Positions 4,942 through 55,810 of a stretch of DNA of 64,000 bases are shown one piece after another. Numbering within the stretch: position 1 is the stretch's first letter; every line of letters begins with the position of its first letter. Both the position numbers and the translations under genes were made by a program. The stretch is from a virus: positions 1 through 64,000 of IMG/VR virus record IMGVR_UViG_3300031972_002122. One strand, given 5' to 3'. The notes under the pieces were generated by a model. That model did no database searches, was not told the DNA's origin, and saw only the letters and a list, made by a program, of their open reading frames with translations.

Positions 4942-4960
4942 TTTTGTATATTTGCGCATA
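4940..4960 (+). promoter_or_regulatory. Bacteroidota-type promoter-like box before primase
   Basis: TATATTTG at 4947-4954 matches the -7 consensus TAnnTTTG described for Bacteroidota, six nt before the primase ATG. A weak TTTA lies 21 nt upstream in place of the -33 TTTG. A similar context (AATTTTGnATnTTTGC) recurs before the gene at 50936. Confidence 0.4.
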
Positions 4961-6009
4961 TGAAGCATAAAATATTGTCATTGCTAATATCGATTCTTGG
5001 TGAATCGCATAACACTACAGGTGACAATCATTCGTTTCGATGTCCAAATTGTAATCACCGAAAGAAAAAATTAGAAGTTGACATATTGAAGGGGTTATGG
5101 CACTGTTGGGTGTGTAACAGAGGTGGTAAGAATTTTTTCTCATTATTAAAGTGGATTAAGGCTGGTCGAGATAAGATGGATTCACTCGAAACCATTCTCA
5201 AAACTAAGCGACGAATTTATGATTCTAAAAGTGAGTATGTTGAAGCTAGTTGTGATCTACCCAAGGAATTTATACCATTATGGGAAATGCATCCTGAAAG
5301 TTTTTTTTGGAGAGCTGCTATAAATTACTTAAAGTCTAGAGATGTTCATATCGGCGATATTCTGAAATATGGAATTGGTTATTGTGATTCTGGTGTATAC
5401 AAGAACATGGTCATTATTCCAAGTTATGATGGATGTGGGCAGTTGAATTATTTCCAGTCTAGATCATTCATACCGAATGCTAGGATGAAGTTTAAGAATC
5501 CGCCCGTGAAGCGGAATGTTGTAGGGTTCGAGTTGATGATCAATTGGGACGAACCGATTGTGTTGGTAGAAAGCGCATTTGACGCTATCACAGTTAGGCG
5601 TAACGCCATACCGTTATTCGGTAAATCTATACCTAAAAAGCTTAAACGGAGAATTATTGATCATGGCGTGAAGCAAGTCAATATATGTCTAGACGCCGAC
5701 GCAATATCAGATGCGATCAATCATGCTAGTTATTTTCTAGGTAATGGTGTGGAAGTCAAACTAACCGAACTGTCGGGTGAGGATGACCCATCCAGTCTTG
5801 GGTATGGCGAGATATGGAAAAAACTAAACAACGCTATTCAATTTGATGAAAGTGTATTATTTGAACGGAGAATAAAAGATCATTTAGATGGAGAAGGTAA
5901 AACGTATTTACCACGTAGGAGACATTCACTGTCGACTATTTCAACGGCACAGCGAGTATCGGGAAGTTTTCGACCGAATGTTCAACATAATCAGGGAAAC
6001 AGGTACTGA
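4960..6009 (+). CDS. DNA primase (zinc ribbon plus Toprim)
   Basis: 349 aa. It makes RNA primers for lagging-strand synthesis, with the gp41-like helicase encoded at 55.8 kb. An N-terminal zinc ribbon is seen at residues about 23-48 (FRCPNCNHRK, then LWHCWVCNRGG), i.e. two C-x2-C pairs. A Toprim domain follows at about 150-260: YFQSRSF, PIVLVESAFDAITV with the catalytic Glu, and VNICLDADAISD for the D-x-D. The last 40 codons overlap, in another frame, the start of the next gene; this tail is Ser/Arg-rich and looks like overprinted sequence, not a conserved domain. The start sits just after a TATATTTG box. Confidence 0.85.
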   Translation: MKHKILSLLISILGESHNTTGDNHSFRCPNCNHRKKKLEVDILKGLWHCWVCNRGGKNFFSLLKWIKAGRDKMDSLETILKTKRRIYDSKSEYVEASCDLPKEFIPLWEMHPESFFWRAAINYLKSRDVHIGDILKYGIGYCDSGVYKNMVIIPSYDGCGQLNYFQSRSFIPNARMKFKNPPVKRNVVGFELMINWDEPIVLVESAFDAITVRRNAIPLFGKSIPKKLKRRIIDHGVKQVNICLDADAISDAINHASYFLGNGVEVKLTELSGEDDPSSLGYGEIWKKLNNAIQFDESVLFERRIKDHLDGEGKTYLPRRRHSLSTISTAQRVSGSFRPNVQHNQGNRY

Positions 6010-15319: not shown

Positions 15320-16939
15320 ATGTCAACTAAAAAACCAACACAGCAACAAATTATACAACAACGTATACGGGAAGAGTATGTGCGGTGTGCTCAAGATTCT
15401 GTTCACTTTTTTAAAAAGTATGCGATTATTCAACACCCGAAGCGTGGTAAGATTAATTTTAATCTTTACGAATTTCAAGAGAAGACACTCCCACAATTTC
15501 AAAATAATCGATATAACATCGTACTGAAGGGTAGGCAACTTGGATTGTCAACACTAACTGCTGGGTATGCATTGTGGCGCATGTTATTTACCGATGACTT
15601 CAAGGTACTTGTTATAGCGACCACACAGGACGTTGCTAAAGAATTAGTATCCAAGGTTCAACTAATGTATGAAAAGCTCCCAGTGTGGCTAAAAAAGACC
15701 GCTAAGGAGGATGTGTTCAATAAGCTAGAACTTACATTTAAAAACGGGTCATCAATTAAAGCAGTTTCTAGTTCTGAGAAATCAGCCAGATCGCCATCTA
15801 TTTCTCTCTTACTGGTAGATGAGGCAGCATTTATAGATAAGATGGATGATATTTGGACTGCAGCTCAAGCTACACTAGCGACTGGTGGGGATGCTATCTT
15901 ATTATCTACACCAAATGGTATGGGTAATTTATTTCATCAAAAGTGGATGGAGGCTGTTGAGGGCACGTTTGACGATTTAGACGAGCCATTTAATGCTATA
16001 ATGCTCCCATGGCACTTACACCCAGACCGTGACGAGAAATGGGCTAAGAGTGAAAAGTCTAAACTTGGTGCTCGTAAATTTGCACAAGAGCATGATTGTG
16101 ATTTTATAAGTTCTGGACACACTGTTATTGAGGGTGAAATACTTCAATATTATAAAGAAAATATGGTCGTCGATCCGTTAGAGAAGCGGTATAGTGGCGA
16201 TTTATGGATTTGGGACTTCCCCAATTATAGTAAGAGTTATATGGTACTTGCCGATGTTGCTCGGGGTGATGGTGCGGATTATAGTACATTTCACATTTTT
16301 GATGTCGAGACTATGGATCAGGTGGCTGAATACAAAGCTAAGATTGGTACACGAGAGTTTGGACACATGCTCGTTAGTATCTCGATGGAATATAATCAAG
16401 CACTACTGGTTATTGATAATAAGAATATGGGATGGGATGTTGTGCAGGTTGCACTTGATCGTGGATACCCTAACCTGTACTACAGTTATAAAAATGATCC
16501 ATTTTTCGATGAAAATATTCACTTGCGGAAGAATTACGATTTGAAAAACAAGAAGGATATGGTACCGGGCATGACAGTTGGTCATAAAATCAGAATGAAT
16601 CTTATATCTAAATTGGAGATATATTTCCGCGAGAAAGCCATAGGGCTAAAAAGTATTAGAACGATTAATGAACTGTTTGTATTTCTTTGGGTAAATGGTA
16701 AAGCTCAGGCACAGAGTGGGTATAATGACGACTTGGTAATGGCACTAGCCATGGGGTTATTCGTTAGAGACACTGCATTGCGGATGCGGCAGGTTGGGAT
16801 TGATCTGACTAAGAAGTCGTTAAGTCAAAGTCATAAATTAGTTTACACTGCTAAGCGGACTGGTGACGACACATGGAAGATGGATTTGGGTGGAAATAAG
16901 GGTACTGAAGATGTGAGGTGGCTTTTAGGGCGTAAATAA
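15320..16939 (+). CDS. 17: Terminase large subunit (gp17-like)
   Basis: 539 aa, slightly shorter than T4 gp17. This is the ATP-driven packaging motor and headful nuclease docking on the portal. The ATPase half shows a variant Walker A KGRQLGLST (residues 70-78), Walker B SLLLVDEAAF (D166, E167) and coupling motif LLSTPNGMGN. The nuclease half shows an RNase H-like fold: LADVARGDGADYST with the first Asp, LLVIDNKNMGWDV and the late Asp in GYNDDLVMALAM. Its start is set by GAGGATGATGAATG. It is followed 16 nt later by the portal gene with a late promoter motif between. Confidence 0.95.
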   Translation: MSTKKPTQQQIIQQRIREEYVRCAQDSVHFFKKYAIIQHPKRGKINFNLYEFQEKTLPQFQNNRYNIVLKGRQLGLSTLTAGYALWRMLFTDDFKVLVIATTQDVAKELVSKVQLMYEKLPVWLKKTAKEDVFNKLELTFKNGSSIKAVSSSEKSARSPSISLLLVDEAAFIDKMDDIWTAAQATLATGGDAILLSTPNGMGNLFHQKWMEAVEGTFDDLDEPFNAIMLPWHLHPDRDEKWAKSEKSKLGARKFAQEHDCDFISSGHTVIEGEILQYYKENMVVDPLEKRYSGDLWIWDFPNYSKSYMVLADVARGDGADYSTFHIFDVETMDQVAEYKAKIGTREFGHMLVSISMEYNQALLVIDNKNMGWDVVQVALDRGYPNLYYSYKNDPFFDENIHLRKNYDLKNKKDMVPGMTVGHKIRMNLISKLEIYFREKAIGLKSIRTINELFVFLWVNGKAQAQSGYNDDLVMALAMGLFVRDTALRMRQVGIDLTKKSLSQSHKLVYTAKRTGDDTWKMDLGGNKGTEDVRWLLGRK

Positions 16940-16955: not shown

Positions 16956-18773
16956 ATGGCGTCATTTAGAGAAACTTTATCAAGACTATTCAGTCGTAAT
17001 GTGATAATTAAGCGTATGCCGGGCAACCGCCTCAAGGCATTCGATGTAACAAAATCGCAATCGGCTGGTGCTAGATCGATGAAATATGATCGACATGGGT
17101 GGCATCGATCTAAAAATACACTATCCGTTACTGGTTGGGGAACTGGGTACACGTCTGCTGAGATTGAAGCAGTTAGAAAACACATGTACGATGATTATGA
17201 AAATATGGATACTGACGGTATCATATCTTCAGCACTTGACATATACGCTGACGAGGCTACGACTCGGGACGCCAACGGTGAGCTACTAACGATCCGATCT
17301 CAGAACCCACAGGTTAAAAAAATCCTATATAATTTATTTTATGATGTATTGAACATCCAGAACAACTTATGGAGTTGGGTTAGGGGTGCGTGTAAGTATG
17401 GGGATTTCGTACTTTATCTTGTACTGAAAGAAGAAATTGGTGTAGTTAATGTTATACCTATTCATCCGTCTGTAGTTGAGCGGGAGGAAGGGTTCGATCC
17501 TGATAATCCAGAAAAATATCGATTCAGATATACTGGGGAAGCACTAAATATGTTGGAGAAGGATTACTTCGAAGAATACGAGGTAGCACATATTAGGATA
17601 TTGACCGATACCAATTATTTACCGTACGGTCGTTCAATTATTGAGCCGGGACGGCGTGAATACAAAAAACTTACATTACTAGAGGATGCGATGCTTATTA
17701 GCCGTATAATGCGGGCACCTGAGCGTCGAGTTTTTTATGTGGATATTGGGAACATTGCACCTGAAGAAGTTGATGGGTATATGCGCGATTTCATAGACGC
17801 CATGAAAAAGACGCCATTTATTGATCCCGTGACTGGTGATTATAATTTGAAGTATAATATTCAAAATATGCTAGAGGATTACCACATCCCTAGACGTGGA
17901 TCAGATTCTGGGATGGAGGTGGATACGTTACCCGGATTACAGAATGAAGGTCAAATAAATGATGTCGAGTATGTTAAGTCTAAATTACTCGCTGCTATTA
18001 AAATCCCGAAGGCTTGGTTAGGTTTTGATGAAAACGTTGAGGGTAAGGCAACGTTAGCTGCAGAGGATATTAGATTTGCGAGGACTACTGAACGAATCCA
18101 AAATTTTATTGTAGCTGAGCTATACAAGATTGCGGTAACGCATTTATACATACAGGGATTTGCGTCTGATGAGTTGCTAGACTTTGAGTTAACTCTGGCA
18201 AATCCATCAACTATTTACAAACGTCAGCAAATTGACCTCCTTAACGAGAAAATGAATTTAGCCACAAACATGATGGAATCTAGATTATTTTCTAACAAGT
18301 ATATTTATGAAAGGATATTCGATCTAAGTACAGACGAGTGGAAGGCTGAGCATGATCAAGTTATTGAAGACCTTAAGGAGACATTCCGTAAAGAACAGAT
18401 TTTCACGGAAGGTAATGATCCGAAGGTTACTGGAAAATCGTTCGGTACACCACATGATATGGCATCACTACAGATGGCGTCTAAATTGGACGGTGATGAA
18501 ATTAAAAATTTGTACACTACCGACGGTCGAGAAGATAATGAAGGACAGCCAGAGGCGACTGGTACGTTTGGTACGGATCGTGATAAAGCATTTGGTAGAG
18601 ACCCTGATGGTCGGAAGACCAATGATTCGGCAATCGATGTAAATTTGCAGGCTCATAACATGAGTCAACTGAATAAGTTTAAGGCAGTTAAACAATCCAT
18701 GATTCTCAACGAGGATACATCAAAGCATATAAAAATGTTAGATGAAAGTTCGTTGCTAGGTGATGAAGATTAA
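16956..18773 (+). CDS. 20: Portal vertex protein (gp20-like)
   Basis: 605 aa, somewhat longer than T4 gp20 (524 aa). It forms the dodecameric ring through which DNA enters the head. Typical portal segments are visible: DDYENMDTDGIISSALDIYADE, a wing region ending in IHPSVVEREEGF, the long helix with PYGRSIIEPGRREYKKL, and the crown helices. The block YVKSKLLAAIKIPKAWLG matches the conserved portal 'KLLAALKVPKAYLG' pattern. The C-terminal 100 residues are acidic and low in structure and end in SLLGDED. It is flanked by the terminase and by a small gene of the prohead-core region, as in marine T4-like phages. Confidence 0.93.
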   Translation: MASFRETLSRLFSRNVIIKRMPGNRLKAFDVTKSQSAGARSMKYDRHGWHRSKNTLSVTGWGTGYTSAEIEAVRKHMYDDYENMDTDGIISSALDIYADEATTRDANGELLTIRSQNPQVKKILYNLFYDVLNIQNNLWSWVRGACKYGDFVLYLVLKEEIGVVNVIPIHPSVVEREEGFDPDNPEKYRFRYTGEALNMLEKDYFEEYEVAHIRILTDTNYLPYGRSIIEPGRREYKKLTLLEDAMLISRIMRAPERRVFYVDIGNIAPEEVDGYMRDFIDAMKKTPFIDPVTGDYNLKYNIQNMLEDYHIPRRGSDSGMEVDTLPGLQNEGQINDVEYVKSKLLAAIKIPKAWLGFDENVEGKATLAAEDIRFARTTERIQNFIVAELYKIAVTHLYIQGFASDELLDFELTLANPSTIYKRQQIDLLNEKMNLATNMMESRLFSNKYIYERIFDLSTDEWKAEHDQVIEDLKETFRKEQIFTEGNDPKVTGKSFGTPHDMASLQMASKLDGDEIKNLYTTDGREDNEGQPEATGTFGTDRDKAFGRDPDGRKTNDSAIDVNLQAHNMSQLNKFKAVKQSMILNEDTSKHIKMLDESSLLGDED

Positions 18774-20922: not shown

Positions 20923-21570
20923 ATGGCAAAACAATTATTAATTGAATATTTACCATTTACAATTAAGCCAAGCTTAATCAATGAGTCTACTGACCGTAAT
21001 GGTGGGCGTCTTATTGTTTCTGGGGTATTACAACGAGCTAATGCTAAGAATCAAAATGGTAGAGTATATCCACGTGGGATTCTTGAGAGGGAGATCACGC
21101 GATATATTGATACGGAAATTGCTCAAAAGAGAGCACTTGGAGAGTTAGACCATCCAGAAAGTTCGGTTGTGAACTTGCGAAATGTAAGCCACAATATATT
21201 GGAATGTGAGTGGGATGGTGATGACCTTATTGGTAAAGTAGAAATACTTGGTACGCCGTCTGGTAATATTTTGAAAGAATTATTTAAGGCTGGGGTTACG
21301 CTAGGTATCTCATCTAGAGGTCTAGGGTCTGTGAAAGAATTACATGAAAGTGATGGTACTGTCGAAGTCCAACCAGATTTCGAACTGATCACTTTTGATT
21401 TTGTATCAAATCCGTCTACCCACGGTGCGTTCCTATCACCAGTTGGTGAGAAGTCACTCGGGGAGGGAATGGTGAATGAGAGTATGATGAGAGAATTAAA
21501 CGAGTATGCCAAAGCAGAAACTTTGGTACGTGACATCATCTGCGAGCTATCAGGCGTGTGTTGTTACTAA
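20923..21570 (+). CDS. 21: Prohead core protease (gp21-like)
   Basis: 215 aa, matching T4 gp21 (212 aa). A herpesvirus assemblin-type serine protease that removes scaffold and trims capsid proteins after (L/I)-x-E. The catalytic His is in GELDHPES (H77) and the Ser in LGISSRGLGS (S130 or S131); the strand FELITFDFVSNPSTHGAFL is characteristic. Its own N-terminus (LLIEYL, then SLINES) contains candidate self-cleavage sites at L-I-E and I-N-E-S. An AGAGGA box lies about 15 nt before the ATG. A GIY-YIG endonuclease gene follows 16 nt downstream. Confidence 0.93.
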   Translation: MAKQLLIEYLPFTIKPSLINESTDRNGGRLIVSGVLQRANAKNQNGRVYPRGILEREITRYIDTEIAQKRALGELDHPESSVVNLRNVSHNILECEWDGDDLIGKVEILGTPSGNILKELFKAGVTLGISSRGLGSVKELHESDGTVEVQPDFELITFDFVSNPSTHGAFLSPVGEKSLGEGMVNESMMRELNEYAKAETLVRDIICELSGVCCY

Positions 21571-22378: not shown

Positions 22379-22752
22379 GCCTATTATCACTGTACGAACG
22401 TGCTGGTAAGGATATGTTCGATAAGGAATTCGAATACACGAAAGAAGAGCGTGGTGCGTTCATGGAAGCCGTTAAAAACTACGAGGCGTATGGTGAAGTA
22501 ATTCGTGGGTCGGAAATGTTAGGGGAAACAATTAAAGAAATATCCGAGCTAGTTGAGTTGGCTGGTGGATTTACGTTGAAGGAAACCGATGGTTGGTTCG
22601 ATAATGTAACTGCGACTAGACACGTCAAGCAGATGAAGGAAGCCGTAAAGGTTCTCCAGAAGGAAGCTCAGGAAATCATGAGCCGTCAACAGCGATTGGA
22701 AGCGGCGTATGAAGATGTTGGATCATTATTAGGGAGATATTACGATGTCTAA
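22357..22752 (+). CDS. Hypothetical prohead-region protein
   Basis: 131 aa from ATG 22357, which has AAGGAAG seven nt upstream; a TTG start at 22336 is also open. The N-terminus MSGKKKLSLLSLYERAG contains L-Y-E, in the manner of the other leader peptides here. The C-terminal half (DGWFDNVTATRHVKQMKEA, QQRLEAAYEDVGSLLGRYY) is a helical block I associate with marine T4-like phages near the head genes, function unknown. It starts inside the end of the homing endonuclease, suggesting that the endonuclease was inserted just upstream of it. Confidence 0.6.
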   Translation: MSGKKKLSLLSLYERAGKDMFDKEFEYTKEERGAFMEAVKNYEAYGEVIRGSEMLGETIKEISELVELAGGFTLKETDGWFDNVTATRHVKQMKEAVKVLQKEAQEIMSRQQRLEAAYEDVGSLLGRYYDV

Positions 22753-24208
22753 ACGTGTGGGTGATGAAATTAAGACTATCAAGGGTAAGAGTTTGGGGGT
22801 TATTGTTAAGCAGGGTAAATCCAAAAAGCGAAAAATAGTTAGAGTTTTAAAACTAGGAAATCAATACAGAGTACAGTACGGAAATTCTGTTTATGATATA
22901 GATAAATCTGAGATTGACTCTGAATTCAATACATTGATGGGAGAAAATAAAATGTCTAAGAAAAAATTAAGTTTAATGGAGGCTTATTACTCATTACGTG
23001 GTAAGACTCTTAACGAATCTGGTGGTACACTTAACCGTGGTGATTTTGCTTATCGTATAGTTGATAGTAAAAACGGCAAGTATATGTCATTGTTCCATGG
23101 AACTAAAGGATCGCGTACAATTCCAGTTGGTAAGTGGGTTGATGCTGATGTGATGCAGGTTAAGAACCCGGGCACGTCTAAGAATTTTTTTAAATCTGGA
23201 TGGCATGTAACTCCAAGTTTTGAAGAGGCGGCTGGATATTTAACTAACTTCAGGTCTAAAGCTAGTGAAAAGTATGTACTAGCCAAGGTTCAGGTGGATG
23301 GCGAAATCCGTAGAAAGCCACGGTCTAGAGCCAATGTGTGGCTTGCTGAAAAAATGAAAATAGTTGAAATACTAGGTAGACCTACTGTTGAAGGTATCGA
23401 TGAGGTTAATGCCGCAGATGCTTACGAGTTGATGGACATTAGTCCAATCGATGGTGGTGATGAGTTTGGGCGTGAAGATGAAACTCGACGAGGTACTGTT
23501 GAACAGAGTGTCAATGAATCGGATAGAGCTGAAGACTTTGCACAGAAATATAACCCAGAATACAAATATATCGTTTTTATCGATGGGACTCCTAAATCTG
23601 GTTGGGAATACTTTAGAGATGCTATAACTGATGGAATCCTAGATAGTGCATGGGGATATAACGAGAGTGAACTGGAAGATGAGAATCCCGAAGCTTTAAA
23701 TATACTCAATCGAATATTTGACGAATTCGGTGATGATATCGGGTTGGAGGATTTTTCTGAAATTAACGATATGATATCTAGTTTTAACCGAGCCATGTCT
23801 CCTGACGAGAGTGATGATAATGTTCGGATAGAACCAGTACCCTCTAACTTTGGTGGGGATCGAGACGGTCAATACGAAAGTGTAAACAGTCTAGATGGAT
23901 ACAAAAAATTGTTTACTGAAAATCTAAATAGATTAAATTCTGTGGGTCATAATAAATACAACATGGTTCGTGAGGATTATAAAGGTTGGCGGAATCGTGA
24001 GACGTGGAATGTAGCGTTGTGGCTTACGAAAGATAGCGGACTACGTTCGGCGGCTAAAGAATTCAACGAATCTTATAGGGGAAATCAACCATATCGAGAT
24101 TTCATTCAGTACATTGGGTTGGCTGGTGAGCGGACTCGGGATGCCGTTGATTGGATCAATCCACAATTGGATTATAGTTCATTGAATAAAATGATGGAGA
24201 AAATATAA
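22745..24208 (+). CDS. Multidomain putative internal head protein
   Basis: 487 aa in one frame, apparently built of modules. Residues 1-67 form a basic SH3/KOW-like beta unit (RVGDEIKTIKGKSLGV, LGNQYRVQYGNSVYDI). At 69 a new leader begins (MSKKKLSLMEAYYSL, then TLNESGG), with L-M-E-A and L-N-E-S sites and its own GGGAGA box, so translation may also start at 22949-22951. Residues about 100-215 are a domain with SLFHGTKGSRTIPVGKWV, GWHVTPSFEEAAGYL and WLAEKMKIVEIL, seen in phage proteins of unknown function. The C-terminus (about 410-487) has YKGWRNRETWNVALWL, a widespread phage/plasmid motif. It may be packaged and injected; the activity is unknown. Confidence 0.55.
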   Translation: MSKRVGDEIKTIKGKSLGVIVKQGKSKKRKIVRVLKLGNQYRVQYGNSVYDIDKSEIDSEFNTLMGENKMSKKKLSLMEAYYSLRGKTLNESGGTLNRGDFAYRIVDSKNGKYMSLFHGTKGSRTIPVGKWVDADVMQVKNPGTSKNFFKSGWHVTPSFEEAAGYLTNFRSKASEKYVLAKVQVDGEIRRKPRSRANVWLAEKMKIVEILGRPTVEGIDEVNAADAYELMDISPIDGGDEFGREDETRRGTVEQSVNESDRAEDFAQKYNPEYKYIVFIDGTPKSGWEYFRDAITDGILDSAWGYNESELEDENPEALNILNRIFDEFGDDIGLEDFSEINDMISSFNRAMSPDESDDNVRIEPVPSNFGGDRDGQYESVNSLDGYKKLFTENLNRLNSVGHNKYNMVREDYKGWRNRETWNVALWLTKDSGLRSAAKEFNESYRGNQPYRDFIQYIGLAGERTRDAVDWINPQLDYSSLNKMMEKI

Positions 24209-24639
24209 TGGAAGATTTTAAAAAAGATTCATTAATAGAAAATTATAATAGAATCGTTAGGGCTAAAAATAATCGTCTTAATGAGGCTGGGATGTTTTTT
24301 GGTCAGGGATTTATTAAAGAGAATAAAGTGTCTGGTGATGGGTTCGAAGCAATCGACCGTGGGGTTATATCTGGGTATGAAGAAGACAGTAAACTTGAAG
24401 GTGACGGCTTCCATGAGTGGGATGTTACTCTAAGTCGTCCATTGAATCTAGGTAACAATTACACTGATGACCATTTCGCGGAGGCATTGAAAGATGCTTA
24501 TGGTGATTCTGAGCTTTTAGATAATTTTCTAGAAACTGAAGTATCTCTGTCAGATACGATAAATTTTATTTACCGAGGAAATTACGGGAAACACAAAGAC
24601 ACGTGGGGTATGTCAGACCTGTCAGATTTCTTGAGATAA
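24208..24639 (+). CDS. Hypothetical acidic protein with LNEA leader
   Basis: 143 aa. The first 27 residues form a helix with two candidate protease sites, L-I-E and L-N-E-A (SLIENYNRIVRAKNNRLNEA). The rest is acidic and Gly/Asp-rich (EEDSKLEGDGFHEWDVTL, HFAEALKDAYGDSELLDNF) with no recognised domain. It starts one base into the upstream stop codon (TAATG). It is one of a run of small genes between protease and scaffold that share such leaders, so I infer a processed head-internal protein. Confidence 0.5.
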   Translation: MEDFKKDSLIENYNRIVRAKNNRLNEAGMFFGQGFIKENKVSGDGFEAIDRGVISGYEEDSKLEGDGFHEWDVTLSRPLNLGNNYTDDHFAEALKDAYGDSELLDNFLETEVSLSDTINFIYRGNYGKHKDTWGMSDLSDFLR

Positions 24640-24649
24640 TAATACATAT

Positions 24650-24919
24650 ATGAGTTTAAAAAATAATAGTTATAAAAAAAGAAAAATGAGTAAGAAAAAG
24701 CGTGAGTTTTTATCAATCTCACCCGGGAATCCAACGGGTGTCGATGTAGTCGATGGTGATATAAATTATGCACTTAGGGTGTGGAAGCGAAATGTTAAGG
24801 ATAGCGGCATCATGTACGAGTTGTATAAACGTCGCGATTACACAAAACCAACGACCGCACGTAGAAAGGTGAAGTTGGATGCGATATATAAACAGCGAAT
24901 TGGGAGTAAAACTAAATGA
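24650..24919 (+). CDS. rpsU: bS21 ribosomal protein homologue
   Basis: 89 aa. Residues about 38-85 match the bS21 pattern: INYALRVWKRNVKDSG aligns with the 'ALRRFKRxxxKxG' helix, then YELYKRRDYTKPTTARRKVK with the 'Y-x-KP-T-x-x-R-K' turn, then LDAIYKQR. A 36-residue Lys-rich N-terminal extension precedes it; an internal ATG at 24686 would shorten this. bS21 sits at the 30S platform next to the 3' end of 16S rRNA. Phage-encoded bS21 is known from marine and large phages, where it is thought to enter host ribosomes. It lies among small head-region genes, and its stop overlaps the next ATG. Confidence 0.75.
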   Translation: MSLKNNSYKKRKMSKKKREFLSISPGNPTGVDVVDGDINYALRVWKRNVKDSGIMYELYKRRDYTKPTTARRKVKLDAIYKQRIGSKTK

Positions 24920-25221
24920 TAAATAATTCATCGAAAAAGTCTAAAAAGTTCTCGATGGCGAATGTCGCCAAATCTGTTATACATGATCTACCATTGAATG
25001 AGTATGGTGAGGGTCGTGAAGTTGACATGACATCGGACATTGGTAATACTTGGTTCAATCCAGAAGATATTACCAAAGATGTACTAGCATATTTGATGCA
25101 GGAGTATGAGAATTCTACTGAAGATAACTCTAAGATGAACGCTGATTTTATCGATATCGAAGATGCAATTAATGCTATGGAACGTGGTATTAAAGAATTT
25201 AGGAAGATTACTGGAGTATAA
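24916..25221 (+). CDS. Hypothetical small acidic protein
   Basis: 101 aa, coupled to the bS21-like gene by an ATGA overlap. The N-terminus is Lys/Ser-rich and reaches L-N-E at DLPLNEYGEG (about residue 28), a possible protease site. The rest is acidic and helical (NPEDITKDVLAYLMQEYE, DIEDAINAMERGIKEFRK). No family is recognised. The coupling suggests co-expression with the bS21 homologue. Confidence 0.45.
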   Translation: MINNSSKKSKKFSMANVAKSVIHDLPLNEYGEGREVDMTSDIGNTWFNPEDITKDVLAYLMQEYENSTEDNSKMNADFIDIEDAINAMERGIKEFRKITGV

Positions 25222-25620: not shown

Positions 25621-25759
25621 AATAACGTTTTACTAAAATTTCGCATATATATTATCGAACGTTATTACTGGATTCCAATATCCAGTACACGATATAAAAA
25701 AACCTATCCATTAAGATTCTCAATAATCTTACTAATTACAAATATGGAGTATTTGTACA
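25621..25759 (+). promoter_or_regulatory. Intergenic region with three hairpins before scaffold-capsid genes
   Basis: A 139-nt gap, the longest in the head module. It contains an inverted repeat AATAACGTT (25621-25629) / AACGTTATT (25658-25666); a 7-bp stem ACTGGAT (25667-25673) / ATCCAGT (25680-25686) with a 6-nt loop; and a 7-bp stem TAAGATT (25712-25718) / AATCTTA (25725-25731) with a 6-nt loop. A one-mismatch copy of the late motif, TACTAATTACAAA, starts at 25730. No T-run follows the stems, so these are not classical terminators. They may process or stabilise the message for the abundant capsid and scaffold. Confidence 0.5.
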
Positions 25760-26731: not shown

Positions 26732-26750
26732 CAAAAGGGAGAAAATTAAA

Positions 26751-28397
26751 ATGGATTTACAAAATCTATTGCCCAAAAATGAAAATAAGATACAGCGTAA
26801 GCGTGCTCTTGAGCTAACTGGAAAGTGGCAAAGAACAGGTTTGCTTGAAGGTCTTAATGGATATGAAAAGGGCAACATGGCACAGCTTCTTGAAACGCAG
26901 GCTAAGCAGCTTGTAACAGAGGCTAATGCAACTGGTACGTCAAGTAACAGTGAAGAATGGGCTGGAATTGCATTACCGTTGGTAAGACGTATATTTCATG
27001 AAATTTCTGCAAAGGAATTTGTTTCTGTTCAACCGATGAATTTACCATCAGGACTTGTGTTCTGGTTAGATTTCAAATACGGTACAGGACAACCCGGATT
27101 TAACACAGGTGCTGGAAAGGATAGTCAGAATGACTCACTTTTCGGTGTAACAGATGCTACTAAGGGTACATCAACGCACCCATATGCATCAAACGGTACG
27201 CCAAACGAAGGTCTATATGGACCGGGACGATTCGGATACACAGTAAATGATTATTCGTCATCTGCACTTACATTAGCAGCAGCGGCTTCAGCCACTGAGT
27301 ATGCTACTGGATCAGTTTCTGGTGCTAACTACAATTACAATTCTGAGTTTTCTCAGTCACTTGTAGTTGGTGGGTCATCATTAGCTACTGTAACTATTGA
27401 TTTAGACGCAGTAACTACTATCGTTAACCCTGATAAGAAAGGTGTGAGAGCATTTACAATTTCAGGTACAGGTGTAAACGATGTATACCGTGAGTTCACG
27501 AAGATTAGTTCAGATCAATCGCAGATTACTTTTGTAGTATCTGGATCAGGATTTGCAAACGATCTTGTATTGAATTATCACAAACAGCCAACAGACACTA
27601 CTCGTGGTGATTTCGAGGTTGGAAAAACGCAAGAAACGCCAATTGATATTCCAGAAGTGAACCTTGAGTTCCGTTCTGAGCCGATAGTTGCTAAGACTAG
27701 AAAGCTTAAGGCACGTTGGACTCCTGAATTTGCGCAGGATATTAACGCGTATCAAAACATTGATGCTGAGGCTGAATTAACAAGTATTCTTGGGGAATAT
27801 ATCTCACAGGAGATTGACTTTGAAATTCTTGACATGCTTCTTCAGGACGCTCAAACAACTGAATACTGGTCAAGCCGTATCGGATGGGAGTGGAATGGTT
27901 CAAATGGATTTGACACGCAAGCTACAAACGCAACAGCATACAACCAAGGAACATGGTTCCAGACTTTAGGTACTAAGATGCAGAAAGTTTCTAACCAAAT
28001 CCATAAGTTGACTATGCGAGGTGGAGCGAACTTTGCAGTTGTATCACCAGATGTCGCGACAATCCTAGAGAGTATCCCGGGATATGCTGCAGATACTGAC
28101 GGTGACAAGTTTAAGTACGCATTTGGAGTTCAGAAGGTAGGAACACTTAACAGTCGTTTCCAAATCTACAAGAACCCTTATATGATTGAGAATGTAATCC
28201 TTATGGGATTCCGAGGTAGTAACTATCTTGAAACTGGTGCGGTTTACGCTCCATACATTCCATTAATCATGACACCACTTGTCTTAGACCCAGACACATT
28301 CGAACCACGTAAAGGGGTAATGACTCGTTACGCGAAGAAAATGCTTCGTCCTGAGTTCTATGGTAAGATTTACGTAGACGGATTACACAGACTATAA
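26751..28397 (+). CDS. 23: Major capsid protein (gp23-like, HK97 fold)
   Basis: 548 aa, near the T4 gp23 length (521). The propeptide is about 57 residues; the likely maturation site is QLVTE|ANATG (E57|A58), which aligns with T4 FLTE|AE but has Val at P3. The mature part opens with WAGIALPLVRRIFHEISAKE and VSVQPMNLPSGLVFWLDFKYG, matching the gp23 'VQPMN.P.G..F' block. The C-terminus contains the conserved LGEYISQEIDFEI, KLTMRGGANFAVVSP and KKMLRPEFYGKIYVDGL segments. A GGGAG box precedes the ATG by 9 nt. A strong terminator follows the stop. Confidence 0.95.
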   Translation: MDLQNLLPKNENKIQRKRALELTGKWQRTGLLEGLNGYEKGNMAQLLETQAKQLVTEANATGTSSNSEEWAGIALPLVRRIFHEISAKEFVSVQPMNLPSGLVFWLDFKYGTGQPGFNTGAGKDSQNDSLFGVTDATKGTSTHPYASNGTPNEGLYGPGRFGYTVNDYSSSALTLAAAASATEYATGSVSGANYNYNSEFSQSLVVGGSSLATVTIDLDAVTTIVNPDKKGVRAFTISGTGVNDVYREFTKISSDQSQITFVVSGSGFANDLVLNYHKQPTDTTRGDFEVGKTQETPIDIPEVNLEFRSEPIVAKTRKLKARWTPEFAQDINAYQNIDAEAELTSILGEYISQEIDFEILDMLLQDAQTTEYWSSRIGWEWNGSNGFDTQATNATAYNQGTWFQTLGTKMQKVSNQIHKLTMRGGANFAVVSPDVATILESIPGYAADTDGDKFKYAFGVQKVGTLNSRFQIYKNPYMIENVILMGFRGSNYLETGAVYAPYIPLIMTPLVLDPDTFEPRKGVMTRYAKKMLRPEFYGKIYVDGLHRL

Positions 28398-28450: not shown

Positions 28451-28489
28451 GTTTACATTTGTTTTATATGAAAAACTTTTTTATCTTAG
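28433..28489 (+). promoter_or_regulatory. Tandem Bacteroidota-type promoter-like boxes
   Basis: TTTG (28433-28436), 17 nt, TACATTTG (28454-28461), and a second set, TTTG (28458-28461), 20 nt, TATCTTAG (28482-28489). Both fit or nearly fit the TTTG / TAnnTTTG spacing described in Bacteroidota. They follow the capsid terminator and precede the gene at 28513. The T-rich setting makes chance matches possible. Confidence 0.4.
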
Positions 28490-38218: not shown

Positions 38219-40054
38219 ATGGCAAAGAATGTATTTTTATCTCCGGGTGTATTTACCAGAGAATTCGATCTAAGCTTTATGCAAGACCCAATCGCACCAG
38301 TGGGTGCTGCAGTTATTGGGCCAGCGGTTCGTGGACCGGCTCTTGTACCTACCCCAATCTCTACATACTCAGAGTATATTCGTTGGTTTGGAGATACATT
38401 TACATCGGGGTCTGGACAACTTGAGCAAGAGTATAAATACTTGACATCGTATGCGGTACAGGAATATTTAAGATACGGTGAGGTAATTACTGTAGTTAGA
38501 ATTTTGGCAGGTGCTTACACCCCAGCATATTCGAATGTAATTAATTCATCATCATACCAATTAGAACTTGCAGGATCAGGCGCGTATGCAGCTAGTAATA
38601 TGTCGTTCAAGTTGGAAGCACTTACAGATGGTGACATCACAAATAGTGGTCAAAACTTAGCATCTATTTCTGGATCAGGATTTGACGCGGATAATGGAAC
38701 TGACGGTTTATTAGTTTCTGGATCGAAGTATAATATTCGGTGGGAAATTTCTGGAGTTGATGAGGCTAGAGGTACGTTTGATTTATTGATTAGACGTGGT
38801 GATGACTATAATTCTAGAAAGATCGTTCTAGAACAGTATTCTCAGCTTTCGTTAGACCCTAGCACGGCTAATTATGTTACACGTGTTATTGGTGATCAAC
38901 AATGGACACTAAGATACGATTCTGGTGGAGAACCATATCTTCAGAAATCTGGATCATATCCTAATAGATCGAGATTTATACGTGTTAAGGATGTACAAAA
39001 TACGTTAAATTATATAGATAACTCTGGACAAGTTAGAGATAGTTCATTGACTGGTTCATTACCATCTATAGTATCTGGAACATTCGGATATGGTAACGAA
39101 GGTAATGTGGCGCATCCACGTGCTATGTATCATGCTATATGGAACAACAATACACAAGGATTCAATCCAGCATCTGCTTCTGCGGGTAAAACTGCATACG
39201 AAGATGCGATCGACATCCTAGCAAATAAAGATCAATTTGACATCAACTTGTTGATGACTCCGGGTCTAGTCGAAGGTGGAGCAGATCATGCTAAAATAAT
39301 CACACGTGCAATTAATATGTGTGAAGATCGTGGTGATATTTTCTACATCATCGATCCGACTACATTTGGATCGACAGTAGGTCAAGCACAGTTAGCGGCT
39401 GAAGGTCGTAACACTAACTATGCGGGTATGTATTACCCATGGGTACAGATTCCTGATCCAGACTTAGGTCGTTCAGTATGGATACCACCATCTGCTATCG
39501 TACCGGGCGTGTTCTCATTCAATGACCTTGTAAGACATCCATGGTTTGCACCAGCGGGTCTTAACAGAGGTGGGTTAGATATCGCAGTACAAACTGAAAG
39601 ATTGATGACTCAGAATGATCGAGATAATTTGTACATTAAATCTGTGAATCCAATCGCAACTTTCCCACGTACTGGTGTAGTTGTTTGGGGTCAGAAAACA
39701 TTACAGAAGAAAAGATCAGCACTTGATAGAATCAACGTTAGAAGACTTCTTATCGATGCGAAGAGATTCGTAGCACAAACAGTTAAGTGGTTAGTATTTG
39801 AGCAGAATACGGTTGAGACACGTGCTAGATTTATAGAGTTAGTTGAACCTTATTTTAGAAGAGTCAAAAACCAGCAAGGGCTTTATGACTATCGAATTGT
39901 GATTGACGAGCGTAACAACACTCCAGATGTGATCGATAGAAATGAAATGCGTGCGAACATTTACTTAAAGCCAGCTAAGACTGCAGAATTCATTATAGTT
40001 GATTTCGTAGTTCTTCCAACTGGTGCATTGTTCCCACTTGACTCACAGGAATAA
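38219..40054 (+). CDS. 18: Tail sheath protein (gp18-like)
   Basis: 611 aa (T4 gp18 is 659). Forms the contractile sheath. The N-terminus FLSPGVFTREFDLSFMQDP is the standard sheath opening, with VGAAVIGPAVRGPALVPTP next. The C-terminal conserved domain (about 400-600) has RSVWIPPSAIVPGVFSFND, VVWGQKTLQKKRSALDRIN, VRRLLIDAKRFVAQTVKWL and FEQNTVETRARFIELVEPY. Codon choice seems more uniform here than in flanking genes, as for other abundant virion proteins. Confidence 0.96.
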   Translation: MAKNVFLSPGVFTREFDLSFMQDPIAPVGAAVIGPAVRGPALVPTPISTYSEYIRWFGDTFTSGSGQLEQEYKYLTSYAVQEYLRYGEVITVVRILAGAYTPAYSNVINSSSYQLELAGSGAYAASNMSFKLEALTDGDITNSGQNLASISGSGFDADNGTDGLLVSGSKYNIRWEISGVDEARGTFDLLIRRGDDYNSRKIVLEQYSQLSLDPSTANYVTRVIGDQQWTLRYDSGGEPYLQKSGSYPNRSRFIRVKDVQNTLNYIDNSGQVRDSSLTGSLPSIVSGTFGYGNEGNVAHPRAMYHAIWNNNTQGFNPASASAGKTAYEDAIDILANKDQFDINLLMTPGLVEGGADHAKIITRAINMCEDRGDIFYIIDPTTFGSTVGQAQLAAEGRNTNYAGMYYPWVQIPDPDLGRSVWIPPSAIVPGVFSFNDLVRHPWFAPAGLNRGGLDIAVQTERLMTQNDRDNLYIKSVNPIATFPRTGVVVWGQKTLQKKRSALDRINVRRLLIDAKRFVAQTVKWLVFEQNTVETRARFIELVEPYFRRVKNQQGLYDYRIVIDERNNTPDVIDRNEMRANIYLKPAKTAEFIIVDFVVLPTGALFPLDSQE

Positions 40055-40096: not shown

Positions 40097-40576
40097 ATGC
40101 CAAGAATAGTAGTACCTGATGCGCACCATCCGAGTTTGCAGTTTCGTTACCAAGTAACTACATCGAAGTTACCGAGTGCGCAACTTTATGCAAGATCGGC
40201 TCAACAGCCATCATTCGACAACGCTCCAGTGAGTGTAGAGCATATTAATTACTACTTCAAAGTGAAGGGTAAGACTCGGTGGAATGACATCACACTATCT
40301 TGCTATCAGTTTGAAGGAATAACAGCAAAAGAACTTTGGGATTATCTTAACGGTAGTCACCAAGAAGTTGAGGGTGCAGTTGACATGTACGCTCCATCAT
40401 ACAAGCATGATATGCAGCTAATGATATTAGCCCCAGACGGATCAACTCCAGTAGGGACATGGAAACTAGTAGGCGCATTCATTGCTAACGCATCGTGGGG
40501 TGACATGGATTGGGGAACTGATGACGTTATCCAATGTGATATTACCATATCATATGACTACGCAACTTTCAGCTAA
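40097..40576 (+). CDS. 19: Tail tube protein (gp19-like), paralogue 1
   Basis: 159 aa, as T4 gp19 (163). Stacked hexamers form the tail tube inside the sheath. Diagnostic segments: LQFRYQVTTSKLP, YARSAQQPSFDNAPVSVEH, FKVKGKTRWNDITLSCYQF and GAFIANASWGDMDWGTDDV, with a final ITISYDYATFS. It carries a late promoter and strong ribosome site of its own, so this copy is the best candidate for the main tube subunit. Two further paralogues follow at 40928 and 41416. Confidence 0.93.
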   Translation: MPRIVVPDAHHPSLQFRYQVTTSKLPSAQLYARSAQQPSFDNAPVSVEHINYYFKVKGKTRWNDITLSCYQFEGITAKELWDYLNGSHQEVEGAVDMYAPSYKHDMQLMILAPDGSTPVGTWKLVGAFIANASWGDMDWGTDDVIQCDITISYDYATFS

Positions 40577-41415: not shown

Positions 41416-41907
41416 ATGGCAAGATTATCACCATCTAGTTATAAACCAATTTTACAATATCACTTCAGTGTGAATTTTACGAAATACCCACTTCAGTTGC
41501 CGTTGCAAAATACTGCAAATTATGCGCGGGGTACCGATTTACCGTCAGCGGATAATAATCCAGTATTGGTTGAGTATGGTAATACCTACATGTATGTGAA
41601 GGGTAAGACTCGATGGAATGCTATTACTATGCAATTTTATTCATTATCAGACCCAGATACGAATAAGCAGATGTGGGATTATTTAGGAGTCCATCAAGAT
41701 TCTGACACGGGAGCTGATAGTTTCAAGGCAGATTATGCTGGTGATGTTGCTATAACCCTATTAAATCCAGACGAAACACCTGTAGGGACATGGACACTAG
41801 TCAATGCGTTCATTTCGAATATTAACTGGGGTAATGTTGATTGGGCATCTGAAGATGTAATTCAGCCTGAGATTACATTTGTGTATGATCATGCGGTCTG
41901 GTCTTGA
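41416..41907 (+). CDS. Tail tube paralogue 3 (tube-initiator or cap candidate)
   Basis: 163 aa. Same fold pattern but more diverged: NTANYARGTDLPSADNNPVLV, YVKGKTRWNAITMQFYSL, TPVGTWTLVNAFISNINWG and FVYDHAVWS. An insertion PLQLPLQNTAN sits near the N-terminus. In T4 the tube-like proteins gp48 and gp54 initiate the tube on the baseplate, so this third copy might play such a part; that is inference. AAAAGGAAAA precedes the ATG. Confidence 0.78.
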   Translation: MARLSPSSYKPILQYHFSVNFTKYPLQLPLQNTANYARGTDLPSADNNPVLVEYGNTYMYVKGKTRWNAITMQFYSLSDPDTNKQMWDYLGVHQDSDTGADSFKADYAGDVAITLLNPDETPVGTWTLVNAFISNINWGNVDWASEDVIQPEITFVYDHAVWS

Positions 41908-41949: not shown

Positions 41950-42873
41950 ATGACAAACGTTGTTAATCCAATCCCTAACGGGGATGCAAATGAGCGTGCG
42001 ACCGCTGAACAGTCGGTAGCAAATGCTCAGGCTGAAATTCAAAAAAGAATGGACGCGTTGAAATCTGGTGAAGCTACTCCAGAAGAATTTAAGGAAATAC
42101 ATAAGCAGGAAATTGTTGAGGGTAACAAAAAATCAAAATACCCGACACTTATCGTAGACTTGCCTAGTAAGGGATTGTTATACCCCGAAAACGATCCACT
42201 GTCGGCGGGTACCGTGGAGATGAAATATATGACCGCTAAGGAAGAAGATATTTTGACCACTGAATCTTATATTAAGAAAGGTGTGGTTTTGGATAAATTA
42301 TTTCAATCATTAATTATTTCAAAAATCAATTACGATAATATGCTGATCGGTGACCGAGACGCTGTCATGATAGCAGCTAGAATCTACGGGTATGGTGAGG
42401 AGTATACGACCAAAGTCACAAGTCCGTCTGGAAATACGATGACGGTACCTATCGATCTTAACGAGGTTCCACATAAAGAAATAGACGAATCCATGTATGT
42501 GGGGCGGGAGAATAAATTCTTCTATACAACTATGGACGGGACTGAGATTGAATTTAAACTATTGACCAACGGAGACCAGAAAGAAATTCAAGCTAATTTG
42601 AAGAAAGTTAGACGGGGTGACTCACGGGATACGCAACTTACTTCTAGATTGTACCAAATGATACAAGCCATTGGTGGGAACAGAGATCGTAAGTTTATTA
42701 AGACGTGGGTCGAAAATGACTTTAGAGCAATTGATAGTCGGAAGTTTCGAGAGTATGTGAATGAGATACAACCGGGCATCGACATGTCCATCGAAATTAT
42801 CGATGAGGACACGGGGGAGCCCTTTCGTACTAACATTGCCATCGGACTCGACTTTTTTTGGACTAACATTTGA
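41950..42873 (+). CDS. 26: Baseplate hub assembly protein (gp26-like)
   Basis: 307 aa. LIVDLPSKGLLYPENDPLS, GTVEMKYMTAKEEDILTTE and GVVLDKLFQSLIIS, then LLIGDRDAVMIAARIYGYG-like text, match proteins annotated as gp26-like hub or tail assembly factors in marine T4-like phages. The first 60 residues are a polar leader. The natural end ...GLDFFWTNI is close to the usual 'FFWP' end. The last codons include a run of seven T (42853-42859) where a +1 shift would extend the protein into the next frame. The pair of overlapping frames right before the tape measure resembles other tail assembly chaperones. Confidence 0.72.
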   Translation: MTNVVNPIPNGDANERATAEQSVANAQAEIQKRMDALKSGEATPEEFKEIHKQEIVEGNKKSKYPTLIVDLPSKGLLYPENDPLSAGTVEMKYMTAKEEDILTTESYIKKGVVLDKLFQSLIISKINYDNMLIGDRDAVMIAARIYGYGEEYTTKVTSPSGNTMTVPIDLNEVPHKEIDESMYVGRENKFFYTTMDGTEIEFKLLTNGDQKEIQANLKKVRRGDSRDTQLTSRLYQMIQAIGGNRDRKFIKTWVENDFRAIDSRKFREYVNEIQPGIDMSIEIIDEDTGEPFRTNIAIGLDFFWTNI

Positions 42874-50935: not shown

Positions 50936-52267
50936 ATGGTGAATCTAATAACGTCTAAAAATGCGAATGACGTATTGTCAAACTTATCACGTGAAACTTT
51001 CTGGGTACCTATCCAGTCCGACTGGACGCTACATCATACACAGAACAGAATCAGTTCGATGTATATCTACGACATTCAGACTGAAAATGAGTATATCGTA
51101 GGGTTCCACTCGGTTGATATGGATAATATTGACTTTGATTGGTTTATGGATCGTCTCCCGAATGGTAGACGTTTCTGTTATAGATTGAGATATCTAAAGA
51201 CGGATACACCATTCGAGGACGCCGACATGTTAGTATGGTATAATACTGGAAAGCCAATAGAGCTTGATCAGGACGCGACCATGATATTCAGAAATTATCA
51301 CAGACGTTATAAGGGCATTAAAAATATAAATGATTGTATACCAATCATGAAAATTCTAGAATATTGTCGGAGTGTTAGAAATAAATTCGTATCGTATGGA
51401 TTAGATTACATTCATGTAAACTCTAAGGGCTATTTATTTTATAATGACGTGTACCTAAAATCGTTACACACAATAGAACTTGCTGGTATTTGTGTAGATA
51501 GTGAATTATTCAACGCTAGGTATAACAAAGATACTGATCCAATTGTATACACGGAATACAACCCATACACACTCACTGGTAGACCTAGTTCTAGATTTGG
51601 TGGGATTAATTTCAACTCATTGAATAAGAAGGATGGGTCACGGGCGATGATCGTTAGTAGGTTCGAAGGTGGGAGACTGTTTGAGATTGATTATGATAGC
51701 TATCACGTTAGACTGATCGGGAATATTATAGGTTTTGAACTACCAGACGGAAACTTACACGAACATTTTGCTAGGATATATTTCGGGAGGGATGATATAA
51801 CACCCGAGTTGTATGAAAAAAGTAAAACGATAACATTCCAGCAACTATATGGTAAAGTTAAGCCAGAATACAGTCATATAGAATTTTTTAAACGAATACA
51901 AGAGTTCATAGATAGTCAGTGGAATGATTACGAAACTGTGGGCTATTTTAGTAGTCCATTGTCTGGTCGTAAATTCAGGGAGGGGTGGTTTGATAGTATG
52001 AATAAATCTAAGATGTTCAATTATATCATACAATGTTTCGAGTCTGAGGTTAATGCTGTAGTGCTTAGTGATATTTTACAATATTTATATCAGAGAACCA
52101 GTAAAGTTATTATGTATACGTATGATGCGATAGTAATAGATTACGATCCGTTGGATGGTATTGATGTTATTAGGGGTATTATGAAACGGATGACCAAATT
52201 TGGATATCCAGTACACATACAAGCTGGACTTAATTATAATGATATGATTGATGTTAAAATCGACTAA
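50936..52267 (+). CDS. Degenerate family A DNA polymerase-like protein
   Basis: 443 aa. The C-terminal part shows family A palm motifs in order: TLTGRPSSRFGGINFNSLN (residues 212-230, like Pol I 'TxTGRLSSxxPNLQN'), motif A FEIDYDSYHVRLIG (D252), motif B KSKTITFQQLYG (K297, F301, Y305, G306) and a motif C relic MYTYDAIVIDY (D397). Compared with Pol I, the motif A Glu steric gate is His257, the motif B Arg is missing, and motif C H-D-E is Y-D-A. The N-terminal 200 residues look like a reduced exonuclease domain without clear metal ligands. A family B polymerase is present at 61.3 kb, so this is an extra, possibly specialised, enzyme. Confidence 0.72.
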   Translation: MVNLITSKNANDVLSNLSRETFWVPIQSDWTLHHTQNRISSMYIYDIQTENEYIVGFHSVDMDNIDFDWFMDRLPNGRRFCYRLRYLKTDTPFEDADMLVWYNTGKPIELDQDATMIFRNYHRRYKGIKNINDCIPIMKILEYCRSVRNKFVSYGLDYIHVNSKGYLFYNDVYLKSLHTIELAGICVDSELFNARYNKDTDPIVYTEYNPYTLTGRPSSRFGGINFNSLNKKDGSRAMIVSRFEGGRLFEIDYDSYHVRLIGNIIGFELPDGNLHEHFARIYFGRDDITPELYEKSKTITFQQLYGKVKPEYSHIEFFKRIQEFIDSQWNDYETVGYFSSPLSGRKFREGWFDSMNKSKMFNYIIQCFESEVNAVVLSDILQYLYQRTSKVIMYTYDAIVIDYDPLDGIDVIRGIMKRMTKFGYPVHIQAGLNYNDMIDVKID

Positions 52268-54765: not shown

Positions 54766-55810
54766 ACTCAAGAATCTTTTTTCTAAATTTAAAGAGGAAC
54801 AAGACGCTATTAAGGACAGAAATAGTCGTGTGTTGATCGTGGATGGTTTGAATATGTTTATTCGATCATTCGCGGCATCACCCGCTATGAATGAGCGTGG
54901 TGAGCACATCGGTGGGACAATTGGGTTTATGAAGTCATTCTTCGCTGTTATTAGACGCTTCCGACCAACACGGTGTGTGTTAGTGTTTGATGGGTTAGAT
55001 GGCGGTGCTAGACGTAGAAAGAAGTTTCCAGAATATAAATCTGGACGTAAAAATCGTGACAGATTGAATAGATTTTTTGAACTTGATGGTCATCTAACCG
55101 AAGGTGACTCATTCCAAATTCAGTTCGGTAATCTAGAACAATTACTGAACACGTTACCAATAACCATGATGTCAATCGATTATATAGAAGCGGATGACGT
55201 TATCGGGTATATATCGAAAGAATATTATAGTTATACAGATGTTGGGGATATTATAATTGTGTCCGCCGACAAGGATTTCTTGCAGTTGGTCGATGAGCGT
55301 GTTACCGTTTACAGCCCAATAAAAAAGAAATTATACGATATTGATCTCGTTAAAAAGGAGTTCAACATATCACCAAACAATTATCTCACTTTTAGGACTT
55401 TAACAGGCGATGTGTCTGATAGCATACCCGGTGTCAAGGGTGTTGGGTTAAAAACCCTACTGAAGTATTTTCCAGAGATTATAGAAGGGGACGTCGATCC
55501 ACGGGGAATAGTTCAGTTAGCTAATCAGAAAATCGAGGAGGGTAGTAAGCGCAAGACCTATCAAAATGTGGTCAATGCGGCAGATCAAATTGATGTGAAC
55601 TGGGACTTGATGCAATTATCAAATGTGGATATCCCAGACGCTAAACGGACTATAATACGTAGTATTATGGATGCGGAGGTTTATAAGTTAGATAAGCTTA
55701 GACTTAAGAAGCTTATTTATAAACATGGTCTCAACGACCACATACCACGATTTGATGAATGGATATACTCATCATTAACACAGTTAGACTTATATGCAGA
55801 ATCTGAGTAG
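54752..55810 (+). CDS. 5'-3' exonuclease / flap endonuclease
   Basis: 352 aa from ATG 54752, which overlaps the uvsX end (a GTG one codon earlier is also open). Removes RNA primers and flaps, equivalent to T4 RNase H. Motifs: LIVDGLNMFIRSFAA, CVLVFDGLDGGARRRKKFP, SIDYIEADDVIGYIS, VSADKDFLQLVDE and LTGDVSDSIPGVKGVGLKT (the H3TH region). All acidic metal ligands appear to be present. Slightly longer than T4 rnh (305 aa). It overlaps the helicase gene by 17 nt. Confidence 0.92.
   Translation: MEANRLKNLFSKFKEEQDAIKDRNSRVLIVDGLNMFIRSFAASPAMNERGEHIGGTIGFMKSFFAVIRRFRPTRCVLVFDGLDGGARRRKKFPEYKSGRKNRDRLNRFFELDGHLTEGDSFQIQFGNLEQLLNTLPITMMSIDYIEADDVIGYISKEYYSYTDVGDIIIVSADKDFLQLVDERVTVYSPIKKKLYDIDLVKKEFNISPNNYLTFRTLTGDVSDSIPGVKGVGLKTLLKYFPEIIEGDVDPRGIVQLANQKIEEGSKRKTYQNVVNAADQIDVNWDLMQLSNVDIPDAKRTIIRSIMDAEVYKLDKLRLKKLIYKHGLNDHIPRFDEWIYSSLTQLDLYAESE

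Follow-up and report, generated by a model that had tools for sequence, protein, structure and literature searches.

A phage bS21 gene between protease and capsid genes

Why do phages carry the ribosomal protein bS21, and do specialised ribosomes select mRNAs? Both questions are raised by the window (the whole stretch analysed: 64,000 nucleotides, positions 1 to 64,000 of IMG/VR virus record IMGVR_UViG_3300031972_002122, which is 128,570 bp long and possibly a fragment). Here a bS21 gene lies among virion genes that are led by Shine-Dalgarno (SD) sequences. In Bacteroidota hosts bS21 normally conceals the anti-SD, and SDs usually go unread there. In Flavobacterium johnsoniae, a pocket of bS21, bS18 and bS6 holds the 16S tail, and when bS21 or its C-terminus is missing, initiation is faster on the strongly SD-led rpsU mRNA and slower on SD-less mRNAs (PMC9976891).

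The ORF at 24650-24919 (89 aa; all coordinates are on the + strand of the window unless the record is named) bears out the bS21 homology proposed by a sequence-only reading. It matches Pfam Ribosomal_S21 (PF01165, E 2e-12; 47.1 bits, the cut-off being 27), with residues 31-83 aligned to positions 2-55 of 55, as well as PHROG 21469 'ribosomal protein S21'. Because Met13 is nearly invariant in an alignment with 54 relatives, translation probably starts at 24686, giving a protein of 77 aa (24686..24919). In the clade alignment, a basic, phage-specific N-terminal extension, MSKKKREFLSISPGNPTG (24686..24739), precedes the bS21 core. Tyr80 of the long ORF (codon 24887..24889) aligns with Tyr54 of the F. 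johnsoniae protein, which stacks on the anti-SD (7jil chain z). The window protein thus shares the aromatic residue of Bacteroidia-type bS21s, but it differs from them in length (77-89 aa with the basic extension, rather than about 64 aa without one) and in lacking the very strong SD on its own gene that serves autoregulation; neither 24650 nor 24686 is SD-led.

An AlphaFold2 model (pLDDT 91), made from an alignment that omitted row 2 (phages collection) and three further rows, predicts helices at residues 15-22, 38-52, 54-62 and 67-88 and places an extra short helix within the N-terminal extension. The top viral Foldseek match of this model was RpsU (probability 1.00, at a modest E of 6e-3), and the top PDB matches were mitochondrial small-subunit chains at only E 0.26. 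A search with the bS21 protein itself (P0001) drew a blank in viral_contigs and, at E 1e-5, in the phages collection; relatives were found with the capsid protein.

The window belongs to a T4-like myovirus. It encodes a T4-type terminase large subunit (15320..16939, PF03237), a gp20-family portal (16956..18773, PF07230, E 1.6e-69), a head maturation protease (20923..21570, phrog_207, E 4.9e-55), a gp23-family major capsid protein (MCP; 26751..28397, PF07068, E 4e-74) and a tail sheath (38219..40054, phrog_23, E 2.5e-72). The bS21 gene sits between the protease and capsid genes and is co-directional with them. It occupies the same place in the closest annotated relative by capsid, 'Microcystis' phage Mel-JY01 (57%); no bS21 was found in the record of the second, Flavobacterium phage immuto (53%).

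Several other features of the record were noted. Homing endonuclease genes lie at window 1672-2400 and 21587-22378 (phrog_655; NUMOD3 with GIY-YIG), the second of them within the head gene block, and Rfam gave no match within the window. Outside it, record positions of about 66-89 kb (L002 and L003) carry a run of genes resembling glycosyltransferases, sugar epimerases and a DegT-like aminotransferase, as judged by their first residues only. Among small genes at about 99.5-121 kb (L003:15520-19485 and L004:3240-17129) there are 26 tRNA genes. A PurZ-like adenylosuccinate synthetase gene (L004:5600-6748, record 109600-110748; phrog_1211, E 1.6e-43) suggests that the phage may make 2-aminoadenine DNA; there is a DNA polymerase gene at window 61256. 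Close to the record end, a low-complexity repeat stretch (L005:2829-4529, record 126.8-128.5 kb) is possibly an assembly end or a repeat gene.

Many virion genes, but not bS21, are SD-led

We scored ATG genes of the record for SD cores 5-18 nt upstream. SDs were found on 21 of 38 genes in the virion block (13.4-42.9 kb) versus 25 of 121 elsewhere (Fisher p 1.5e-4; our Fisher values ignore relatedness), with an internal-ATG control of 14%. The virion block of immuto had none on its 33 genes. The SD boxes that the sequence-only reading had noticed at 13363, 26751, 38219, 40097 and 41950 are all present, and its two SD-less starts, 4960 and 50936, were confirmed. SD-led genes include those for the terminase (GAGGA), the protease (AGAGGA), the sheath, the tail tube (40097..40576, phrog_4542), a second tail-tube-like protein (41416..41907, phrog_4542; AAAGGA) and the baseplate hub (41950..42873, phrog_150; GAGGT). 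Those without an SD are the portal, the DNA primase (4960..6009, phrog_47, E 2.3e-43), a DNA polymerase-like gene (50936..52267, phrog_17) and a DnaB-like helicase (55794..57167, phrog_19, E 3e-72); the DNA polymerase (61256..63793, phrog_262, E 6.8e-180) has no usable SD.

All six genes around bS21 are SD-led: a DUF7249-domain gene at 22745 (AGGGAGA, SD region 22727..22740), genes 24208 (GGAG, 24190..24203), 24916 (GGGAG, 24898..24911, within the 3' end of bS21) and 25222 (GGAG, 25204..25217), the putative scaffold gene 25760 (GGAG, 25742..25755) and the capsid gene 26751 (AAAGGGAG, 26733..26746, about -8.6 kcal/mol). The bS21 gene alone has none, the leader of both candidate starts (24625..24685) being SD-less.

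The same division by gene class, which the sequence-only reading had suspected, recurs among relatives. In 14 bS21-carrying genomes or large contigs, SDs precede 125/196 virion genes, 14/93 replication genes and 10/59 genes led by Bacteroidota-type promoters, while five that lack bS21 have SDs on 2/72 virion and 0/29 replication genes. Carriers and non-carriers differ in this way for the MCP (14/14 versus 0/5), tube (12/12 versus 0/5), sheath (12/13 versus 0/5) and scaffold (12/14 versus 0/5). Among the carriers, primase (0/12), DnaB (0/10) and exonuclease (0/11) genes are SD-less, ribonucleotide reductase is an exception (SD on 4/4), and some virion genes often have no SD, namely portal (SD on 1/13), terminase (4/13) and tape-measure. 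The class contrast was stable under four SD definitions, mock windows were low, and spacers peaked at 5-10 nt. No difference between virion and replication genes was found in T4 (19/27 versus 10/15) or in pelagiphage HTVC008M (12/24 versus 9/15), whose hosts read SDs.

bS21 and SD use tend to come and go together

Capsid searches of viral_contigs, filtered for 5 kb or more of upstream sequence and eight or more scored genes, yielded 161 MCP loci; the counts below include every scored gene, whether or not it was recognised as a virion gene. The 81 loci with bS21 had SDs on 776 of 1487 genes (median 55%, internal-ATG control 8%), and the 80 without bS21 in the locus on 126 of 1231 (median 9%, control 12%). 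Thinning at 95% capsid identity left 118 rows. With SD-rich defined as 30% or more, 56 rows were SD-rich with bS21, 57 SD-poor without it, and five discordant (two and three), so that 113 agree. The capsid gene itself was SD-led in 55/59 phages with bS21 versus 5/59 without (mock windows 5/59 each). Phage bS21 and SD-led virion genes are thus linked across the clade.

bS21 changes state seven times on the capsid tree and five times on a tree of portal, protease and capsid, and SD use follows in most cases. The window's clade has a sister without bS21 (L025/L335, SH-aLRT 93; L021 (= G012) and L027 (= G017) lie near it by capsid), which also lacks the SDs. An independent-pairs sign test of the association was not significant, and could not be, since only two supported independent pairs exist.

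The five capsid-SD exceptions all come from one clade, the L303 group, in which bS21 is absent, locus SD use ranges from 0 to 41% and the MCP is SD-led in five members. These (L303, L304, L302, L316 and L295) have AGGA-type capsid SDs and locus values of 16-41%, an unexplained intermediate state. Among the discordant rows, L264 and L044 carry bS21 with few SDs, L264 without the typical N-terminal extension and L044 with it.

Of the 59 bS21s of MCP relatives, 57 have an extension of at least eight residues, which is usually basic and in many cases includes a PG motif. Lys at F. johnsoniae position 24, where hosts mostly have Glu or Asp, is near-constant in the clade, and Trp at position 19 is common. 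The typical extension is absent from the bS21s of LR756508, LR756504, LR756501 and G068, and SDs are rare on the genes examined there. We therefore rejected the idea that any bS21 accompanies SDs.

The bS21 gene seldom shares the leader of its neighbours. After thinning it is SD-led in 4 of 58 loci, and the Mel-JY01 group accounts for three of these; within SD-rich loci the figure is 4 of 55, versus 243 of 324 for genes within three positions of bS21.

A probable Bacteroidota host

The signal from strict counts of TTG-N-TAnnTTTG was weak in the window, so we used a weight matrix from other phages instead, trained on 71 sites (TTG-N20-TAnnTTTG, the motif known as the promoter of Bacteroidota) from Mel-JY01, G085, G087, G012 and G017. 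Across the window record it found nine sites scoring 8 bits or more, where shuffles predict 1.1; eight of these fall in the tRNA-rich region (102-121 kb) and one at 28457. The HTVC008M control gave 2 versus 1.5 expected, and immuto 11 versus 0.9. Together with Tyr at position 54, this supports the Bacteroidota host supposed at the outset. Gene affiliation was uninformative: hits of the DegT-like aminotransferase were mixed (Prochlorococcus, Planktophila, Bacteroidota, OCS116), its cellular matches being 61-65% identical and from unrelated phyla. Mel-JY01 (PP395634.1, L122-L125), labelled a Microcystis phage, has about 17-21 Bacteroidota-type promoters with a sharp 20-nt spacing, and its host label deserves re-test.

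We also sampled 10-20 kb from each of 20 Bacteroidota-phylum genomes (L500-L519). SD-led genes made up 0-12% in the seven with Tyr54 and 6-50% in the thirteen with Arg54. Because the window protein has Tyr54, the phage's host is likely SD-poor.

A proposed translational switch

We propose that the phage uses bS21 to drive a translational early-to-late switch in an SD-blind Bacteroidota host, a reading in which our confidence somewhat outweighs our doubt. Such a switch calls for SD-less leaders on bS21 and replication genes and for SDs before virion genes, which is the pattern seen. Early mRNAs and that of phage bS21, being SD-less, would be translated by unmodified SD-blind host ribosomes. Phage bS21, with its basic extension and altered N-terminal helix, would then displace host bS21 from the 30S platform, leaving the 16S 3' tail free for SD pairing, and ordinary-strength SDs on capsid, scaffold, protease, sheath, tube and neck genes would recruit the modified ribosomes. 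Stated in full, phage bS21 would alter the host ribosome's mRNA-selection code in mid-infection, the early and switch genes being written in an SD-less code and the virion genes in an SD code readable only afterwards; this we hold to be just on the probable side of even.

How the tail might be released is constrained by residue 54. As the window protein keeps its Tyr, simple loss of the anti-SD stacking contact is not the mechanism here, and we rejected loss of the aromatic residue as a general means of release, because most of the clade keeps one. The N-terminal extension and the altered helix are candidates for this role. If a phage bS21 filled the site but left the tail unbound, it could favour virion mRNAs much as bS21-lacking ribosomes favour rpsU. 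Several points count against the switch. bS21 changes state few times on the trees, some loci are discordant, and portal, terminase and tape-measure genes often lack SDs. Chen et al. read an aromatic residue 54 as keeping the anti-SD blocked (PMC9723584). The autoregulatory SD of F. johnsoniae is far stronger than the phage virion SDs. Finally, HTVC008M bS21, which does incorporate into E. coli ribosomes, impaired them in vitro rather than redirecting them (PMC6375957).

An alternative places the difference in the hosts: phages with bS21 would infect Bacteroidota that read SDs and those without it SD-blind ones, with bS21 as an accessory that has nothing to do with this and boosts late translation. 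Many Arg54 genomes do use SDs (up to 50%) and Tyr54 genomes do not; Arg54 occurs in 15 of 59 phage bS21s and Lys54 in Mel-JY01 and L348, and Mel-JY01 has SDs on many other genes too (62/181), so phages with Arg or Lys54 may indeed infect Bacteroidota already reading SDs. However, the window and most of its clade have Tyr or Phe54, the type of SD-poor hosts, the replication and promoter-led genes of bS21 carriers are mostly SD-less, unlike those of phages of SD-using hosts, and bS21 is SD-less among SD-led neighbours. We regard this explanation as unlikely, though it keeps a real share of our belief.

A second possibility, quite improbable in our estimate, is that phage bS21 acts like the host protein: ribosomes would be replete and the anti-SD hidden, phage mRNAs would be favoured in some other way, as Chen et al. 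suggest, and the SDs would serve, for example, mRNA stability. It would suit the aromatic residue 54 (Tyr, Phe or His) of 40 of the 42 distinct phage bS21s in our first comparison, the scarcity of SDs near the host-like bS21s of huge phages, and the co-expression of bS21 with structural genes in lake phages reported in PMC9723584, but it leaves unexplained why virion SDs occur mainly with N-extended bS21s and at the spacing of functional SDs, and why relatives without bS21 fall below the internal-ATG rate (2/72). We give little credence to the reading that SD strength merely tracks expression level, with bS21 needed in small amounts and ribosome specificity unchanged, for although capsid, tube, sheath and scaffold genes carry SDs most consistently and portal and terminase often have none, SDs should bring no benefit on SD-blind ribosomes, the relatives without bS21 make equally abundant proteins from SD-less genes (0/5 for each of the four), and T4 has no comparable class difference.

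If the translational switch is right, the phage may offer a natural example of a virus that changes ribosome specificity between its early and late genes. A clade in which the presence of a single ribosomal protein tends to go with a particular leader code gives a concrete prediction.

Comparison with known systems

Earlier papers already describe phage bS21, its N-terminal extension, a connection with late genes and the idea of ribosome hijacking (PMC6375957, PMC7162821, PMC9723584). A search of published papers, mostly open-access ones, did not turn up the SD pattern.

HTVC008M (Mizuno et al. 2019, PMC6375957) is likewise a T4-like phage carrying bS21, but its host is alphaproteobacterial, its bS21 has no N-terminal extension in the alignment, and its SDs lie on replication and virion genes alike. 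The rpS21 of huge phages (Al-Shayeb et al. 2020, PMC7162821) resembles the window protein in a basic-rich N-terminal extension, predicted there to favour phage mRNAs; the accessible text ties SD use to rpS1 rather than rpS21. In three uncultured huge-phage records (LR756508, LR756504, LR756501) bS21 is unextended and few SDs lie nearby.

The Bacteroidetes jumbo phages of Chen et al. (2022, PMC9723584) are similar in several respects: bS21 lies near the genes for terminase, portal, protease and capsid, Bacteroidota hosts were inferred, the residue at position 54 is aromatic and a late-stage takeover of ribosomes was proposed. Those genomes measure 293-331 kb and encode bS21 on the opposite strand, whereas here it is co-directional within a 128,570-bp record. 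The authors argue that the anti-SD stays blocked; in the sections consulted, the SDs of phage genes are not analysed.

The proposed switch resembles the bS21-lacking ribosomes of F. johnsoniae (McNutt et al. 2023, PMC9976891), in that a change of bS21 at the platform shifts preference from SD-less to SD-led mRNAs. There, the change is absence of bS21 and the target is one extremely strong SD, on rpsU; in the phage, we propose replacement by a bS21 whose own gene is SD-less, and many virion genes carry ordinary SDs.
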